This document shows positions 46,272-51,735 of a stretch of DNA of 64,000 bases, piece by piece. Each line of letters starts with the position of its first letter. Position 1 is the first letter of the stretch. Below the pieces are notes generated by a model that was not told where the DNA came from, ran no database searches, and was given only the letters and a program-made list of their open reading frames with translations. A program made the translations under genes and the position numbers. This stretch comes from Blastococcus sp. HT6-4. Lineage in GTDB: Bacteria; Actinomycetota; Actinomycetes; Mycobacteriales; Geodermatophilaceae. The stretch spans positions 3,844,001 to 3,908,000 of the forward strand of contig NZ_CP155551.1 in assembly GCF_039679125.1 (NCBI RefSeq), written 5' to 3'.

Positions 46272-47045
46272 TCAGTTCTTCTTGGCGGGCACGGCGGTCG
46301 GGTCGCTCCGGCGGGCGGTACGCGCGCGGGTGACCCGGGCGGACGCGGCCGGAGCCTTCGAGGTGGCGGCGCTGCTCTTCTTCGCGGGCGCCTTCCGCTT
46401 GGGGGCCTCGGCGGCCGGCTCGGTGGTCTCGGCGACGGCCGACTTGGTCGACTCGGCCGTCTCGTGCACGGCCTCCTCGGCCTTCGCGGCGGCCTTGCCG
46501 GCCTTGGCCGCGGTCTTCTGCGCGACCGAGGTGACCTCGTCCGACGCCTCGGACACGGCCTCGGCGGCCTCGTCGATCGCGTCCTCGAGGCTGCCCTCGA
46601 CGGTCTCCACGACCTGCTCGGTGCGGCGGCCGATCCGCCGGACGCTCGGCTGGCGGCGCAGGTCCTCGAGCACCTCGGCGCCACGCCCGGCCAGCGTCTC
46701 CACCGTGGTGGAGGCCTGGGTCCGCGCGGTGCCGACCAGCCCGGTGACGGTGCTGAGCAGCGTCTCGGGGCGGACGGCCCCGGCCACCTGCTGCGCCGTC
46801 GTGCGGGCGGTGCCGGCGGCCTCGGTGGCCCGGGTGCGGGCCTCCTTCACGGCCAGGTCGGCCTGGACCTGGGCCTCGCCGGGCAGCGCCAGCACCGAGG
46901 AGGCGGCCTGGGTACGGAACTGGCCGAACACGGTCCGGGCGCGCTCGACGGCCAGGTCACCGGCGCCGATGGCGGCGAGCACGGCGGGCCGGGCGGCGGT
47001 CACGGCGAACTCGCCGTACTGCTTCACGATCTGGGTGGTGCTCAT
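46272..47045 (-). CDS. HbhA-like (heparin-binding haemagglutinin-type) helical protein
   Basis: A 257-residue protein. The N-terminal YGEFAVTAARPAVLAAIGAGDLAVERARTVF segment resembles the start of HbhA. A long Ala/Glu/Thr coiled-coil follows, then a Lys/Ala/Pro-rich C-terminus (APKRKAPAKKSSAATSKAPA; AVPAKKN). In mycobacteria HbhA is a surface adhesin also linked to lipid bodies; in a soil organism an adhesion, cell-surface or DNA-binding role is possible because the tail is histone-like. The gene follows its XRE regulator, the Rv0474-Rv0475 order. Confidence 0.8.
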   Translation of the reverse strand: MSTTQIVKQYGEFAVTAARPAVLAAIGAGDLAVERARTVFGQFRTQAASSVLALPGEAQVQADLAVKEARTRATEAAGTARTTAQQVAGAVRPETLLSTVTGLVGTARTQASTTVETLAGRGAEVLEDLRRQPSVRRIGRRTEQVVETVEGSLEDAIDEAAEAVSEASDEVTSVAQKTAAKAGKAAAKAEEAVHETAESTKSAVAETTEPAAEAPKRKAPAKKSSAATSKAPAASARVTRARTARRSDPTAVPAKKN

Positions 47046-47627: not shown

Positions 47628-48614
47628 TCAGGCGTTCAGCTCCGCCGCTTCCCGGACCTCGCCGACGACGCCGTTCCCACCCTGGACCGCCGGCCGCGCC
47701 CACGGAGCAAGCACCTCCGCCGGCACCCCGAGCCGCCGCAGGCCCGCCCCGAGCGCCGGCGTGCGGCCGCGGTCCCCGCCGTCGTCGAGCTTCAGGGCCA
47801 CCGCCCCGGCGCCCGGCAGCGCCGCCACGTGCACCCCGTCGGCGCCGCCCTTGACCAGCAGCCGCGGCACCGCCCGCATCAGGTCGGTGTCCTCGCGGCC
47901 GGTCCCCGCCACGAACCACGGGTGCGCCCGCATCGCATCCGCGACCGCCCGTTCCCGCGACCCGCCGGGCGCCTCGACGAGGGACAGCACACCGCGGGCC
48001 AGCCCGGTGAGCGACAGGGCGTGCTGCGGAGCCCCGCAGCCGTCCACCACGACCGCCGCCACGGGTTCCCCGGCCGCCTCGCCCAGCCGCACCTCGATCG
48101 CCTGCTGCAGCGGGTGCCCGCGGTCGAGGTACCCCGCGGTCGGCCAGCCCGCCGCGACGCACGCCGAGAGCATCGCCGCGTGCTTGCCGGAGCAGTTCAT
48201 GGCGAGGGGGTCCGGGGACCGGCCGGCCGCCAGCCAGCCCGCCTTCGTCGTCTCGTGCTGGGGCAGGGCCGGCGGGCAGCCCAGGTCGCCGGGCCCGAGG
48301 CCGACCGCCGCGAGCATCCCCGCGGCCAGCTCCCGGTGTCCGTCCTCGCCGGTGTGCGACCCGGCGCCGATCGCCAGCTCCTCGCCCGAGCGCGGCTCCC
48401 ACCCGGCGGCCAGCATCGCCGTCGCCTGCACCGGCTTGTTGGCCGAACGCGGCAGGACCGGCCGGGTGACGTCGCCGGCGGCGAACCGCAGGCCGCCGTC
48501 GGCGCCGAGCACCACGAGCGCACCCCGGTGCACCGACTCCAGGAACCCGGAGCGGTGGACCTCGACGAGGACCGGGTTGTCCGGCCAGCCCGCGGTCGCC
48601 CCCAGGGCGTTCAG
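47628..48614 (-). CDS. Asparaginase (L-asparaginase II/Rhizobium-type), probable CTG start
   Basis: A 328-residue protein of the thermolabile AnsA family of rhizobia. VLVEVHRSGFLESVHRGALVVL opens the domain. Catalytic-type motifs are RSANKPVQATAML with the Ser-x-x-Lys near 50 and NCSGKHAAMLSACVAAGWP near 137 with a second Ser/Lys pair. A GCGAPQHAL segment follows near 185. No ATG, GTG or TTG lies before the domain except inside the upstream gene, whereas CTG at 48614 has GAGG 7 bases upstream and overlaps the upstream stop (CTGA). I therefore chose CTG. Confidence 0.85.
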   Translation of the reverse strand: MNALGATAGWPDNPVLVEVHRSGFLESVHRGALVVLGADGGLRFAAGDVTRPVLPRSANKPVQATAMLAAGWEPRSGEELAIGAGSHTGEDGHRELAAGMLAAVGLGPGDLGCPPALPQHETTKAGWLAAGRSPDPLAMNCSGKHAAMLSACVAAGWPTAGYLDRGHPLQQAIEVRLGEAAGEPVAAVVVDGCGAPQHALSLTGLARGVLSLVEAPGGSRERAVADAMRAHPWFVAGTGREDTDLMRAVPRLLVKGGADGVHVAALPGAGAVALKLDDGGDRGRTPALGAGLRRLGVPAEVLAPWARPAVQGGNGVVGEVREAAELNA

Positions 48615-49171
48615 TGCCGTCCCTCGTCGGCCAGCAGCGCGGCGACGTCGGCCTCGCCGTCGCGGTACCGGCGGCCCAGCTCGGCCGCCAGCCCGTCCAT
48701 CACCTGCTGCACCCCGCGGCGGCGCTCCGACAGGCCCGTCTCGGCCGCGGCCAGCGCCCGCGCCGCCGACTCCAGCGACTCGTCGGACAGATCGGTGATG
48801 GCCGACAGGTCGGCGCCGGGAGTCAGCGAGTTCACCCAGGCCTCGTAGTCCTCCGGGCTCGCCGGCTGCACCGTCTGGTGACGCCCCAGGCCGTGCGCAG
48901 GCCCGCGGCCCTTCTCGGCGAGGATCTCGGGCAGGAGGTCGACCAGCGACCGCCCGTCGTGCTCGGCCCGCCGCTGCAGCTCCCGGCGCACGATGTCCAG
49001 CCGGCCCTGGAGCAGCCGGCGGGTGTAGGAGAGGTTGACCTCCTCCTGCTCCGCCTGCCGGCGCAGCCGCCGGACGTCGCTCATCGGCTGCCGCACCGCG
49101 TCCTCGAGGAACGACGGGTCCAGCAGCGCGTCGACGGCGGCGCCGCCGGCGGGGGGCGTCGGGGAACTCAC
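48611..49171 (-). CDS. rsiG: RsiG-like c-di-GMP-binding anti-sigma factor
   Basis: A 186-residue helical protein. Two copies of the motif E-x3-S-x2-R-x3-Q-x3-D are present: E44/S48/R51/Q55/D59 and E144/S148/R151/Q155/D159. This is the signature of Streptomyces RsiG, where two antiparallel helices bind a c-di-GMP dimer so that RsiG can hold the sporulation sigma factor WhiG. Both copies are intact here. Proteins of this group are often labelled aerial mycelium formation protein. No whiG/fliA-type sigma gene is in the window, so the partner must be elsewhere. GTG 49171; its stop overlaps the asparaginase start. Confidence 0.88.
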   Translation of the reverse strand: MSSPTPPAGGAAVDALLDPSFLEDAVRQPMSDVRRLRRQAEQEEVNLSYTRRLLQGRLDIVRRELQRRAEHDGRSLVDLLPEILAEKGRGPAHGLGRHQTVQPASPEDYEAWVNSLTPGADLSAITDLSDESLESAARALAAAETGLSERRRGVQQVMDGLAAELGRRYRDGEADVAALLADEGRH

Positions 49172-49255: not shown

Positions 49256-50392
49256 TCACGGCGCGATCGTCCCAGACCGGACGGCCCGGACGCGGTCGCG
49301 CGTCGCCGCCTGGGTGTCGTCGAGCGCCGGCGGGGCGTCGTCGGGGTCGACGGCCGCGGTCGACCCGCCGACCGCGAGCCCGGCGCCCTGCGCCACGGAC
49401 TGCTTCACCAGCGCCAGCGCGACCACGCCCAGCTCGTGGTGGCGGACCACGGTGCCGACCCGGCCGACCGTCCGGCTCCCGGCGAGCACCGGCTCACCGG
49501 GGGCCGGCAGGTCCTCGCTGACGCCGTCGAGGTGCAGCAGCACGAGCCGGCGGGGCGGGCGGCCGAGGTTGTGCACGCGGGCCACCGTCTCCTGGCCGCG
49601 GTAGCAGCCCTTCTCCAGGTGGACGGCGGTGCTCAGCCACTCCAGCTCGTTCGGAATGGTGCGGTGGTCGCTGTCCACGCCGAACCGCGGACGCCGGGCC
49701 TCGACCCGCAGCGCCTCGTAGGCCGCGATGCCGCTCGGGGTGGCCCCGGCGGCGAGCAGCCGGTCCGCCACGGCGTCCAGCTCGGCGCGCGGCACGAGCA
49801 GGTCGAACACCACGGCCCCGCCGTCCCCGACCGGGGGCATCCGCCGCACCCAGCCGGCCCCGGCCGGCCGGACCTCGTAACTCGCATCCGGCACCGGCAG
49901 CCCGGCCGCGGCGAGCACCTCGGGGCCGCGCGGCCCGACGACGGAGAGCACCGCCCACTCGGCGGTGACCAACTGCGGCTCCACCCGCAGCATGAACCGC
50001 ATCCGCTCGAGGTAGGCCTGCAGCGCCGCGCCGGTGCCCGGCTCGACGTCGGCCCACGTGGTGCCCGCCAGCTCGGCGACGACGAGGTGGTGCTCGACGT
50101 GCCCGTGCGGGCTGAGCACCAGCGCCTCGCTGCCGGCGCCGTCGGGGAGGCGCTCGACGTGCTGGCTGGTGATGCTGTGCAGCCACGAGAGGCGATCGGC
50201 GCCCGGCACCGCGAGCACGTCCCGGTCGCTGCGGTCGACGAGCCCGGCGCCCTCCGCCAGGACCCGCTGCTCGCGCAGGGGGTCCCCGTAGTGGGCGGCG
50301 ACGGTGCGGACGGCCTCGGCGCGGGACTCGTCCGGGGCGACCTCCACGGGCACCGCCCCGGGACGGGCGAGCAGGGGCGAGGGGGTGGTCAT
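49256..50392 (-). CDS. ygfZ: Folate-binding YgfZ-family protein
   Basis: A 378-residue protein related to glycine cleavage T protein. YgfZ proteins bind folate and support Fe-S cluster proteins and tRNA modification. The signature KGCYRGQETVARVHNLGRPP, with the key Cys, is near residue 262. The N-terminal domain has DRSDRDVLAVPGADRLSWLHSI, with a role in folate binding. ATG 50392 overlaps the Fur-family gene stop (ATGA), so an Fe-S repair protein and a metal regulator are co-translated. Confidence 0.92.
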   Translation of the reverse strand: MTTPSPLLARPGAVPVEVAPDESRAEAVRTVAAHYGDPLREQRVLAEGAGLVDRSDRDVLAVPGADRLSWLHSITSQHVERLPDGAGSEALVLSPHGHVEHHLVVAELAGTTWADVEPGTGAALQAYLERMRFMLRVEPQLVTAEWAVLSVVGPRGPEVLAAAGLPVPDASYEVRPAGAGWVRRMPPVGDGGAVVFDLLVPRAELDAVADRLLAAGATPSGIAAYEALRVEARRPRFGVDSDHRTIPNELEWLSTAVHLEKGCYRGQETVARVHNLGRPPRRLVLLHLDGVSEDLPAPGEPVLAGSRTVGRVGTVVRHHELGVVALALVKQSVAQGAGLAVGGSTAAVDPDDAPPALDDTQAATRDRVRAVRSGTIAP

Positions 50393-50847
50393 GAGGGCTC
50401 CGTTCCGGCGCGTTCTCGGCAGGCGCGGCACGTGCCCGAGAGCGCCACGTGCCCGACGTCCACGGTGAAACCCAGCTCGGCCGCCAGACGTTCCGCCGCC
50501 TGGTCCAGGAGGTCCGGCGCGGCCGACGCGATCTCCCCGCAGGAGGCGCAGACGACGTGCAGGTGCGGCCGCTCGGCGGCGTGGTAGACCGGCGCGCCGC
50601 GCCCCAGGTGGGTGTGCCAGACCAGGCCGAGCCGTTCCAGCAGCTCCAGGGTGCGGTAGACGGTCGAGGTGTCGGGCGCACTCCCGCCCGGCCCCGCCTC
50701 CTCCCGCAGCCGCGCGCCGATCGCCTCCGGTGTCGCGTGTGCGAGCGCCCCCACCGCCGCCAGCACCCGCGCGCGTTGCGGGGTCAGCCGCAGGCCGCGG
50801 GCCCGCAGCTGTTCGGCCAGCGGCGCGGCGACGTCGTCCGGGCCCAT
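50389..50847 (-). CDS. Fur-family metal-responsive regulator
   Basis: A 152-residue Fur/Zur/PerR-type repressor. The winged helix contains LRLTPQRARVLAAVGAL and STVYRTLELLERLGLV. The metal-binding part has HLHVVCASC with a CxxC pair near residue 100 and a second CRAC pair near 142, forming the structural zinc site. Whether it senses Fe, Zn, Mn or peroxide is not decided by these residues. It diverges from the pabC-like gene with 39 bases between starts. Confidence 0.9.
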   Translation of the reverse strand: MGPDDVAAPLAEQLRARGLRLTPQRARVLAAVGALAHATPEAIGARLREEAGPGGSAPDTSTVYRTLELLERLGLVWHTHLGRGAPVYHAAERPHLHVVCASCGEIASAAPDLLDQAAERLAAELGFTVDVGHVALSGTCRACRERAGTEPS

Positions 50848-50886
50848 GGCGGCAGCCTATGCCGGGGGTGCGGCAGGCTGGGACCC

Positions 50887-51735
50887 GTGACGGAGCAGCG
50901 CAGGGTCGCGACCTGGCGGGACGGCGCGGTGACGGCCGTCCCCGCGGAGCAGCCGGTGGTGACGGCCTTCGACCTGGGCCTCGCCCGCGGTGACGGCGTC
51001 TTCGAGTCCGTGGCCGTCGTCGACGGGGGCACACCACACCTCGGGGCGCACCTGGCCCGGCTGGCCCGCTCCGCCGACCGGCTGGCGCTGACCGATCCCG
51101 GGGACGGCGTCTGGCGGGCGCTGGTCGCCACGGTCCTGGCCGACTGGCCCGCCGGCGTCGAGGGCGTCTGCCGGCTGCTCCTCACCCGCGGGCTCGGGCA
51201 GGGGGCGCCACCCACGGCGCTGGCCCTGCTCGCCCCCGTTCCCGCCGAGGTGCTGCGCCAGCGCAGCGCGGGGATCTCCGTCGTCACGCTCGGCCTGGGC
51301 GTCCCGGCCGACTTCCGCGAGCAGGCGCCGTGGCTGCTCGGCGGGGCGAAGACGCTGTCGTACGCGGTGAACATGGCCGCCCAGCGGCACGCGCACGACC
51401 TGGGCGCCGACGACGTCGTCCTCACCAGCCTGGAGGGACAGCTGCTGGAGGGCCCGACCTCGACGGTGGTGTGGGCGGCCGGCGGCGCCCTGCACACGCC
51501 GCCCCAGGAGACCGGCATCCTGCCCGGCACCACCCAGGCCCGGCTGTTCGCCGCCGCCGAGCGGGACGGCTGGCCGACACGGGTGCGGCCGGGCACGGTG
51601 GACGACCTGCACGCCGCCGACGCCGTCTGGCTGCTCTCCGGCGTGCGCGGAGCCGCGCCGGTGCACACGATCGACGGGGTCCGCCGCGGGGACGCCGGGC
51701 TGTCCGGGCGGGTCAGGGAACTTCTCGCCAGGTAG
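50887..51735 (+). CDS. Aminodeoxychorismate lyase/branched-chain aminotransferase-like PLP enzyme
   Basis: A 282-residue fold-type IV PLP enzyme. TAFDLGLARGDGVFESVAV near 22, HLARLARSADRL near 52, the PLP Lys in LLGGAKTLSYAVNMAAQRHA near 155, GQLLEGPTSTVVWAA near 185 and GILPGTTQARLF near 210 are all in place. Likely 4-amino-4-deoxychorismate lyase (folate synthesis), which would suit the neighbouring folate-dependent YgfZ, but a D-amino acid transaminase cannot be excluded. GTG 50887. Confidence 0.85.
   Translation: MTEQRRVATWRDGAVTAVPAEQPVVTAFDLGLARGDGVFESVAVVDGGTPHLGAHLARLARSADRLALTDPGDGVWRALVATVLADWPAGVEGVCRLLLTRGLGQGAPPTALALLAPVPAEVLRQRSAGISVVTLGLGVPADFREQAPWLLGGAKTLSYAVNMAAQRHAHDLGADDVVLTSLEGQLLEGPTSTVVWAAGGALHTPPQETGILPGTTQARLFAAAERDGWPTRVRPGTVDDLHAADAVWLLSGVRGAAPVHTIDGVRRGDAGLSGRVRELLAR

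Follow-up and report, generated by a model that had tools for sequence, protein, structure and literature searches.

The gene under study, located in a 64,000-nucleotide stretch of DNA from a soil bacterium (hereafter the window), is a c-di-GMP-armed anti-sigma factor gene, rsiG, whose product is predicted from its sequence to bind c-di-GMP and the sigma factor WhiG. The explanation that best accommodates our data, and that we regard as reasonably probable, is that c-di-GMP and RsiG together hold WhiG, that WhiG, once freed, opens the flagellar cascade, and that a second sigma factor, FliA, completes it. This explanation builds on the identity of RsiG and WhiG, the contact residues, the pattern of co-occurrence, the absence of FlgM and the conservation of promoters, from which we infer binding, the direction of control and the assignment of sigma factors to promoters. 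The presence of RsiG in Geodermatophilaceae is already published; what is new is the proposed wiring.

Identification of RsiG and its genomic neighbourhood

The RsiG profile PF22802 matches the open reading frame over two stretches with 88.3 bits (cut-off 27). It is the only Pfam family matched, and FlgM is not. Among PDB sequences the frame matches 6pfj_T (E=8e-25), with about 40% identity to the solved RsiG of Streptomyces venezuelae over the fold, and its AlphaFold2 model (pLDDT 82.9), which predicts two helices in an antiparallel coiled coil like that of 6pfj, matches 6pfv/6pfj. The initial annotation had described an RsiG homologue with two intact c-di-GMP motifs, and both statements are borne out: E-x3-S-x2-R-x3-Q-x3-D is present twice in one chain, exactly in both cases (residues 44-59 and 144-159). 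Both motifs, spaced 100 residues apart, are kept in 78 of 79 sequences, a set made up of 78 Geodermatophilaceae loci and the window. The sole departure is found in Blastococcus sp. TF02A-35 (L089:6001-6555, +), where motif 2 carries C for S. The middle loop is nearly invariant across this set, and residues 86-100 show no variation in an alignment of 28 sequences; by position they form the long loop described in PMC8325347. In the model of the free protein, residues 88-98 have pLDDT values below 50.

The closest named relatives of the locus are Blastococcus, in agreement with the family to which the host had been assigned. The genome contains one RsiG locus. The presence of RsiG was to be expected, since twin-motif RsiG has been reported in 16 of 16 Geodermatophilaceae species (PMC8325347). 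The accessible part of that 2021 PNAS paper gives no function for RsiG in this family.

Table 1. Positions of rsiG, its neighbours, its motifs and related genes. Plain coordinates are those of the window; G000 is the genome that contains the window.
Feature	Position	Strand	Remarks
rsiG, twin-motif c-di-GMP-responsive anti-sigma factor	48611..49171	-	186 aa, GTG start
c-di-GMP motif 1, residues E44-D59	48995..49042	-	first long helix, H30-72
c-di-GMP motif 2, residues E144-D159	48695..48742	-	second long helix, H130-170
RsiG residues 86-100 (EKGRGPAHGLGRHQT)	48872..48916	-	long loop, by position
Asparaginase II neighbour (PF06089)	47628..48614	-	start codon uncertain
YgfZ-like neighbour, GCV_T/CAF17-type domains in residues 246-566	49256..51037	-	true start probably further downstream
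whiG	G000:C1 about 3174501-3175301	-	far outside the window
Gene for a membrane protein of about 290 aa	G000:C1:340382-341248 (L319:4266-5270)	+	away from the flagellar cluster; no Pfam match

The asparaginase II gene is conserved beside rsiG. Asparaginase and the YgfZ-like protein were considered as partners of the switch and set aside, as conserved neighbours for which no functional link was seen. A 257-aa protein encoded at 46272-47045 (-) of the window has 60 bits to PF05802 (SctB2, a type 3 secretion translocon family), a match that is more likely a coincidence of a long helical protein.

Two sigma-28-family genes and the partner of RsiG

A WhiG/FliA-type sigma factor had been called for somewhere in the genome, and two are present. 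In a search with the FliA_WhiG profile, one match exceeded the cut-off and the best of five weaker ones adjoined the flagellin gene. The strong match reaches 384 bits with NF004935 (cut-off 343) and 305 bits (E=4e-90) with the WhiG chain of 6pfj; by these sequence criteria, it is a true WhiG orthologue. Its gene lies in the order dprA, xerC-type integrase, whiG, DUF1643, rpsB, tsf, amino-acid-kinase, frr, in which names were taken from Pfam domains and the amino-acid-kinase gene is pyrH by position. The second gene sits between flgK and fliC. TIGR02479 (FliA/WhiG subfamily) is still the best match of its product, at 150.2 bits and thus under the curated cut-off of 189.6, and we regard it as a divergent relative, named FliA by position.

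Beside csrA in the flagellar cluster, a further gene (L168:7338-8435, +; G000:C1:783338-784435) encodes a 365-aa protein with 87-88% identity in three relatives (G028, G002 and G034). It scores 29.4 bits with TIGR02479, far under the cut-off, and looks like a degenerate sigma-28-type protein, possibly a flagellar regulator.

In S. venezuelae, the WhiG residues that contact c-di-GMP are K57, G61 and R62 (PMC8325347). These positions read K/G/R in 31 of 31 WhiG proteins, namely our own and those from the 30 of 46 other over-cut-off genomes for which loci were returned. The same three positions read K/G/R in none of 33 flagellar FliA proteins, where they are S/Q/A/H, N and A. This makes WhiG, on sequence grounds, very likely the partner of RsiG. 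The suggestion of the initial annotation that the sigma factor under RsiG might be a flagellar-type one in place of WhiG is not upheld, as a true WhiG is present and FliA is without all three c-di-GMP-contacting residues. The two sigma factors also differ in region 2.4 (RLQGA in 32 of 33 FliA versus RIRGA in 30 of 30 WhiG loci) and in region 4.2 (TLSRVSQMR in 31 of 33 versus TESRICQ in 30 of 30).

Co-occurrence of RsiG, WhiG and flagellin

We searched 57 Geodermatophilaceae genomes with models of flagellin, WhiG, RsiG and FlgM. Flagellin was found in 48 genomes, WhiG over the NF004935 cut-off in 47, and RsiG in 49. FlgM (PF04316) was found in none of the 57, while the Escherichia coli, Bacillus subtilis and Thermotoga controls were positive. 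Among the 51 near-complete genomes (completeness of 90% or more, contamination of no more than 5%), 47 contained all of flagellin, WhiG over the cut-off and RsiG, and four contained none of the three. The possibility of a motile stage, raised before on taxonomic grounds, is matched by flagellar genes in the genome itself.

All three were missing in eight genomes (G005, G008, G010, G016, G018, G024, G026 and G031), which come from three genera (g6, g9 and g11) whose assemblies are fragmented. Since these genera possibly form one clade, the joint absence may represent a single evolutionary loss. Two incomplete genomes show partial sets: in G054 (73% complete) flagellin and RsiG are present but no WhiG exceeds the cut-off, and G033 (74% complete) has RsiG and a WhiG under the cut-off (320 bits) but no flagellin. 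The RsiG of G033 (L322:1432-1821, +) has 29% identity, an intact motif 1 and a degenerate motif 2, and its WhiG (L323:1539-2243, +) has 52% identity. Because both are so divergent, they are likely to be contaminants or of foreign origin, or else G033 represents an unusual lineage.

Candidate promoters

Sigma-28-type promoters of the form STCA-N17-GCCGA were found at fixed spacing before flgB, the flbD-motAB and fliM operons, the membrane-protein gene of Table 1 and fliA. Sites were scored out of 12. The early operons in play are flgBC-fliEF, flbD-motAB and fliM-fliN, which were scored in our own genome and nine relatives. G009 would have been a tenth, but its contig ends too early for scoring. 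Upstream of the flgB operon the score was at least 11 in 10 of 10 genomes, upstream of flbD-motAB it was at least 10 in 9 and at least 11 in 7 of 10, and upstream of fliM it was 12 in 8 of 10. The flbD and fliM sites are missing in G022, and the fliM site is missing in G021. The -10 of all three operons is GCCGAT. For fliA, a CTCAAG-type -35 with GCCGA was present in 21 of 33 genomes, and no promoter was found in the other 12. Upstream of fliC, in a scan anchored on the conserved flagellin N-terminus, CTCAAG-N15-GCCG(T or A) scored 11 or 12 in 32 of 35 distinct genomes; G009, G025 and G052 did not reach 11 at N15 spacing.

The fliC -10 is mostly GCCGT. To compare base 5 of the -10, a neutral scoring was used in which A was not favoured over T. 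This base is A in 21 of 21 fliA sites passing the score, in 23 of 24 full STCA/GCCG early-operon sites (the exception being a second site in G052), and in 7 of 32 fliC sites; the difference between fliA and fliC has a Fisher P of 4e-09 when genomes are counted as independent despite their kinship. The two classes do overlap, since the fliC -10 reads GCCGATGA in G011 and G012 and GCCGAAGA in our own genome.

At the membrane-protein gene, the site starts 36-42 bases before the first aligned codon in 30 of 30 loci, with scores of 9 to 12 that are at least 11 in 22. It was through 8 of these loci that the site had been noticed; of the remaining 22, 14 score at least 11. At many loci only about 7 bases separate the end of the -10 from the start codon, and the mRNA may therefore lack a leader. 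The gene tracks RsiG imperfectly: it was found in 45 of 57 genomes and is missing in the RsiG-bearing G029, G041 and G049 and in G033. An ECF sigma gene has a site in our own genome and in two relatives among the matches listed, the own promoter being CTCACC-N15-GCCGATGA; directly upstream of this gene lies one for a PilZ-domain protein of the c-di-GMP receptor type (L320:4013-5503, -; G000:C1 about 145012-146502). A chemoreceptor gene has a form of the site that is one base shorter. In G020, a relative of the same genus, CTCATG-N15-GCCGATGA stands upstream of a GAF-GGDEF-EAL gene (L268:713-3001, +), an arrangement that recalls Rubrobacter, where WhiG-type promoters precede genes for c-di-GMP enzymes.

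Among 29 whiG upstreams the best score was 10 and none had a site of this class; the upstreams of csrA, o782769 and flgK had no consistent site. Upstream of rsiG, 76 of 77 loci scored 10 or less and one scored 11; the own rsiG upstream has a score of 11 with a poor -35 (CGCACC).

Controls and rejected searches

In 3000 shuffles, a score of 10 was reached by 2%, 11 by 0.13% and 12 by none. Spacer and order controls were run on 60 upstream regions, 30 of which belong to the membrane-protein gene. With the spacer one base off (14 or 16), no upstream of any gene reached 11, and on the other strand 11 was never reached. Some other spacers gave up to 6 of 10 upstreams at 11 (fliM, spacer 9), and the order-swapped motif reached 10 in 18 of 60 regions and 11 in 1 of 60. 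Single weak sites therefore mean little. Among the upstreams of called genes in the clusters, 21 of 379 reach 11, true sites included.

In the search for target promoters, which had been proposed as a check on the switch, the published WhiG consensus TAAA-N15-17-GCCGATAA had no exact match in the 57 genomes, and a related form, STCA-N17-GCCGA, was found before flagellar operons in its place, which indicates a -35 that differs from the textbook form. With up to two mismatches, TAAA-N15-GCCGATAA and TAAA-N16-GCCGATAA gave 16 and 21 sites in our own genome against 4 and 7 for the reversed controls. These were rejected: 26 of the 37 lie inside called coding frames and, of the remaining 11, the chemoreceptor site alone is plausible. 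When two mismatches were allowed, CTCA-N15-GCCGATAA had 65 sites and its reversed control 40; the position was checked for 30 of the 65, and the set was not used as a list.

Counts of STCA-N17-GCCGATGA do not separate flagellate from non-flagellate genomes (5, 7, 0, 3, 4, 4, 2 and 1 in the eight negatives and 9 in G000, with 0 or 1 each for the reversed pattern). For this reason we dropped the counts and relied on recurrence before the same genes. Of 20 site regions inspected, 12 were used (3 for the ECF sigma gene, 8 for the membrane protein and 1 for GGDEF-EAL). The regions L251, L254 and L266 had no clear gene, and L250, L252, L253, L255, L267 and the plus-strand site of L259 were single cases; all of these were left uncounted.

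A proposed circuit and its alternatives

It is established in S. venezuelae that RsiG clamps WhiG at high c-di-GMP. By analogy, at high c-di-GMP the RsiG described here would clamp WhiG, its two helices having bound a dimer of c-di-GMP. When c-di-GMP falls, free WhiG would transcribe the genes with STCA-N17-GCCGA promoters, the candidate targets being flgBC-fliEF, flbD-motAB, fliM-fliN, fliA and a few others (the membrane protein, the ECF sigma factor and the chemoreceptor). It is the canonical GCCGA -10 and the co-occurrence that point to WhiG as the factor starting the early operons and fliA. FliA, with its changed regions 2.4 and 4.2, would then make flagellin from GCCGT-type promoters. In Geodermatophilaceae, RsiG would in this way fill the role that FlgM has in other motile bacteria, with c-di-GMP instead of hook completion as the input.

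A role of the switch in motility instead of sporulation, as the initial annotation proposed, is favoured by co-occurrence and promoter anatomy, and the flagellar output is a supported, though unproven, sequence-based prediction. Flagellate actinobacteria, zoospore formers above all, are reported to be richer in c-di-GMP enzymes (PMC10746217). Descriptions of Blastococcus mention motile rods and/or non-motile cocci with a tendency to aggregate (PMC9686282). Motility was not observed in the strains of that study, though the genes are there, and this counts against a flagellar output.

The main rival, which we consider unlikely yet the strongest of the alternatives, also has RsiG holding WhiG, but lets FliA read every flagellar STCA-N17-GCCG promoter, that of fliA among them, and gives WhiG another regulon, namely the membrane protein, the ECF sigma factor and a change of cell type between cocci aggregates and rods. 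The joint disappearance of WhiG and flagella would then reflect the loss of the entire motile life stage. Every site has the same -35 core and spacing, a fliA site in 21 of 33 genomes is what autoregulation would produce, the sites of the membrane-protein and ECF sigma genes are not part of the flagellar cluster, and the -10 classes overlap in some genomes. However, the early promoters read GCCGA whereas fliC, the surest FliA target, mostly reads GCCGT, and the residues of regions 2.4 and 4.2 that are kept in WhiG are changed in FliA. Sequence alone cannot settle the choice between this rival and a cascade in which WhiG comes first.

Control of budding, spore-like differentiation or pili, with flagella linked only indirectly, appears distinctly less probable still. 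For the Rubrobacter switch the proposed targets are type IV pili and c-di-GMP enzymes (PMC8325347), and the GAF-GGDEF-EAL site of G020 would fit such an output, but that case was seen once only, and the conserved sites stand directly before flagellar operons at fixed spacing. Direct control of FliA by RsiG is the least credible reading, and hardly to be expected: both proteins are encoded in the genome and FliA is left without a known anti-sigma factor by the absence of FlgM, but all 33 FliA proteins lack the three contact residues and a WhiG with all three exists.

Relation to known systems

The wiring that we favour, with RsiG holding WhiG ahead of the flagellar cascade, shares with S. venezuelae the twin-motif monomeric RsiG and the WhiG partner with its K/G/R contacts. 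Streptomyces differs in being non-motile and in using WhiG for whiH, whiI and spores (PMC4255298, PMC8325347), whereas Geodermatophilaceae have flagellar operons as conserved candidate targets and possess FliA as a second sigma-28-type protein. In Streptomyces, WhiG is also bound by the phosphodiesterase RmdB, which prevents its capture by RsiG (PMC13232838). Rubrobacter radiotolerans, with the complex (RsiG)2-(c-di-GMP)2-WhiG (PDB 7lq2-7lq4), offers a switch with a non-spore output in a unicellular, non-sporulating actinobacterium (PMC8325347), as would Geodermatophilaceae. Its RsiG is a single-motif homodimer instead of a twin-motif protein, and its proposed output is type IV pili and DGC/PDE genes (PMC8325347), while that of Geodermatophilaceae would probably be flagella.

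As in the FlgM-FliA (sigma-28) checkpoint, an anti-sigma factor would hold a sigma factor of the flagellar clade; the differences are that FlgM is absent from all 57 family genomes, that RsiG has no FlgM match and that its input would be c-di-GMP. Chandra and Chater noted in 2013 that simple actinobacteria encode no FlgM-like protein and that the part played by WhiG in their motility had yet to be analysed (PMC4255298). In Actinoplanes, WhiG/FliA-clade sigma factors direct the flagella (and pili) genes of the zoospore regulon, but WhiG is present there and RsiG is absent (cited in PMC8325347). The open-access literature that we searched yielded no paper giving Actinoplanes FliA promoters and none linking WhiG or RsiG to flagella in Geodermatophilaceae.

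As part of the motility reading, we tentatively suggest that the spore switch of Streptomyces could be a motility switch that was reused once flagella had been lost. The present analysis names the probable partner of RsiG and supplies a short list of candidate promoters, and it detects no FlgM among the family genomes sampled. The role of WhiG before spores is therefore open to direct experiment.
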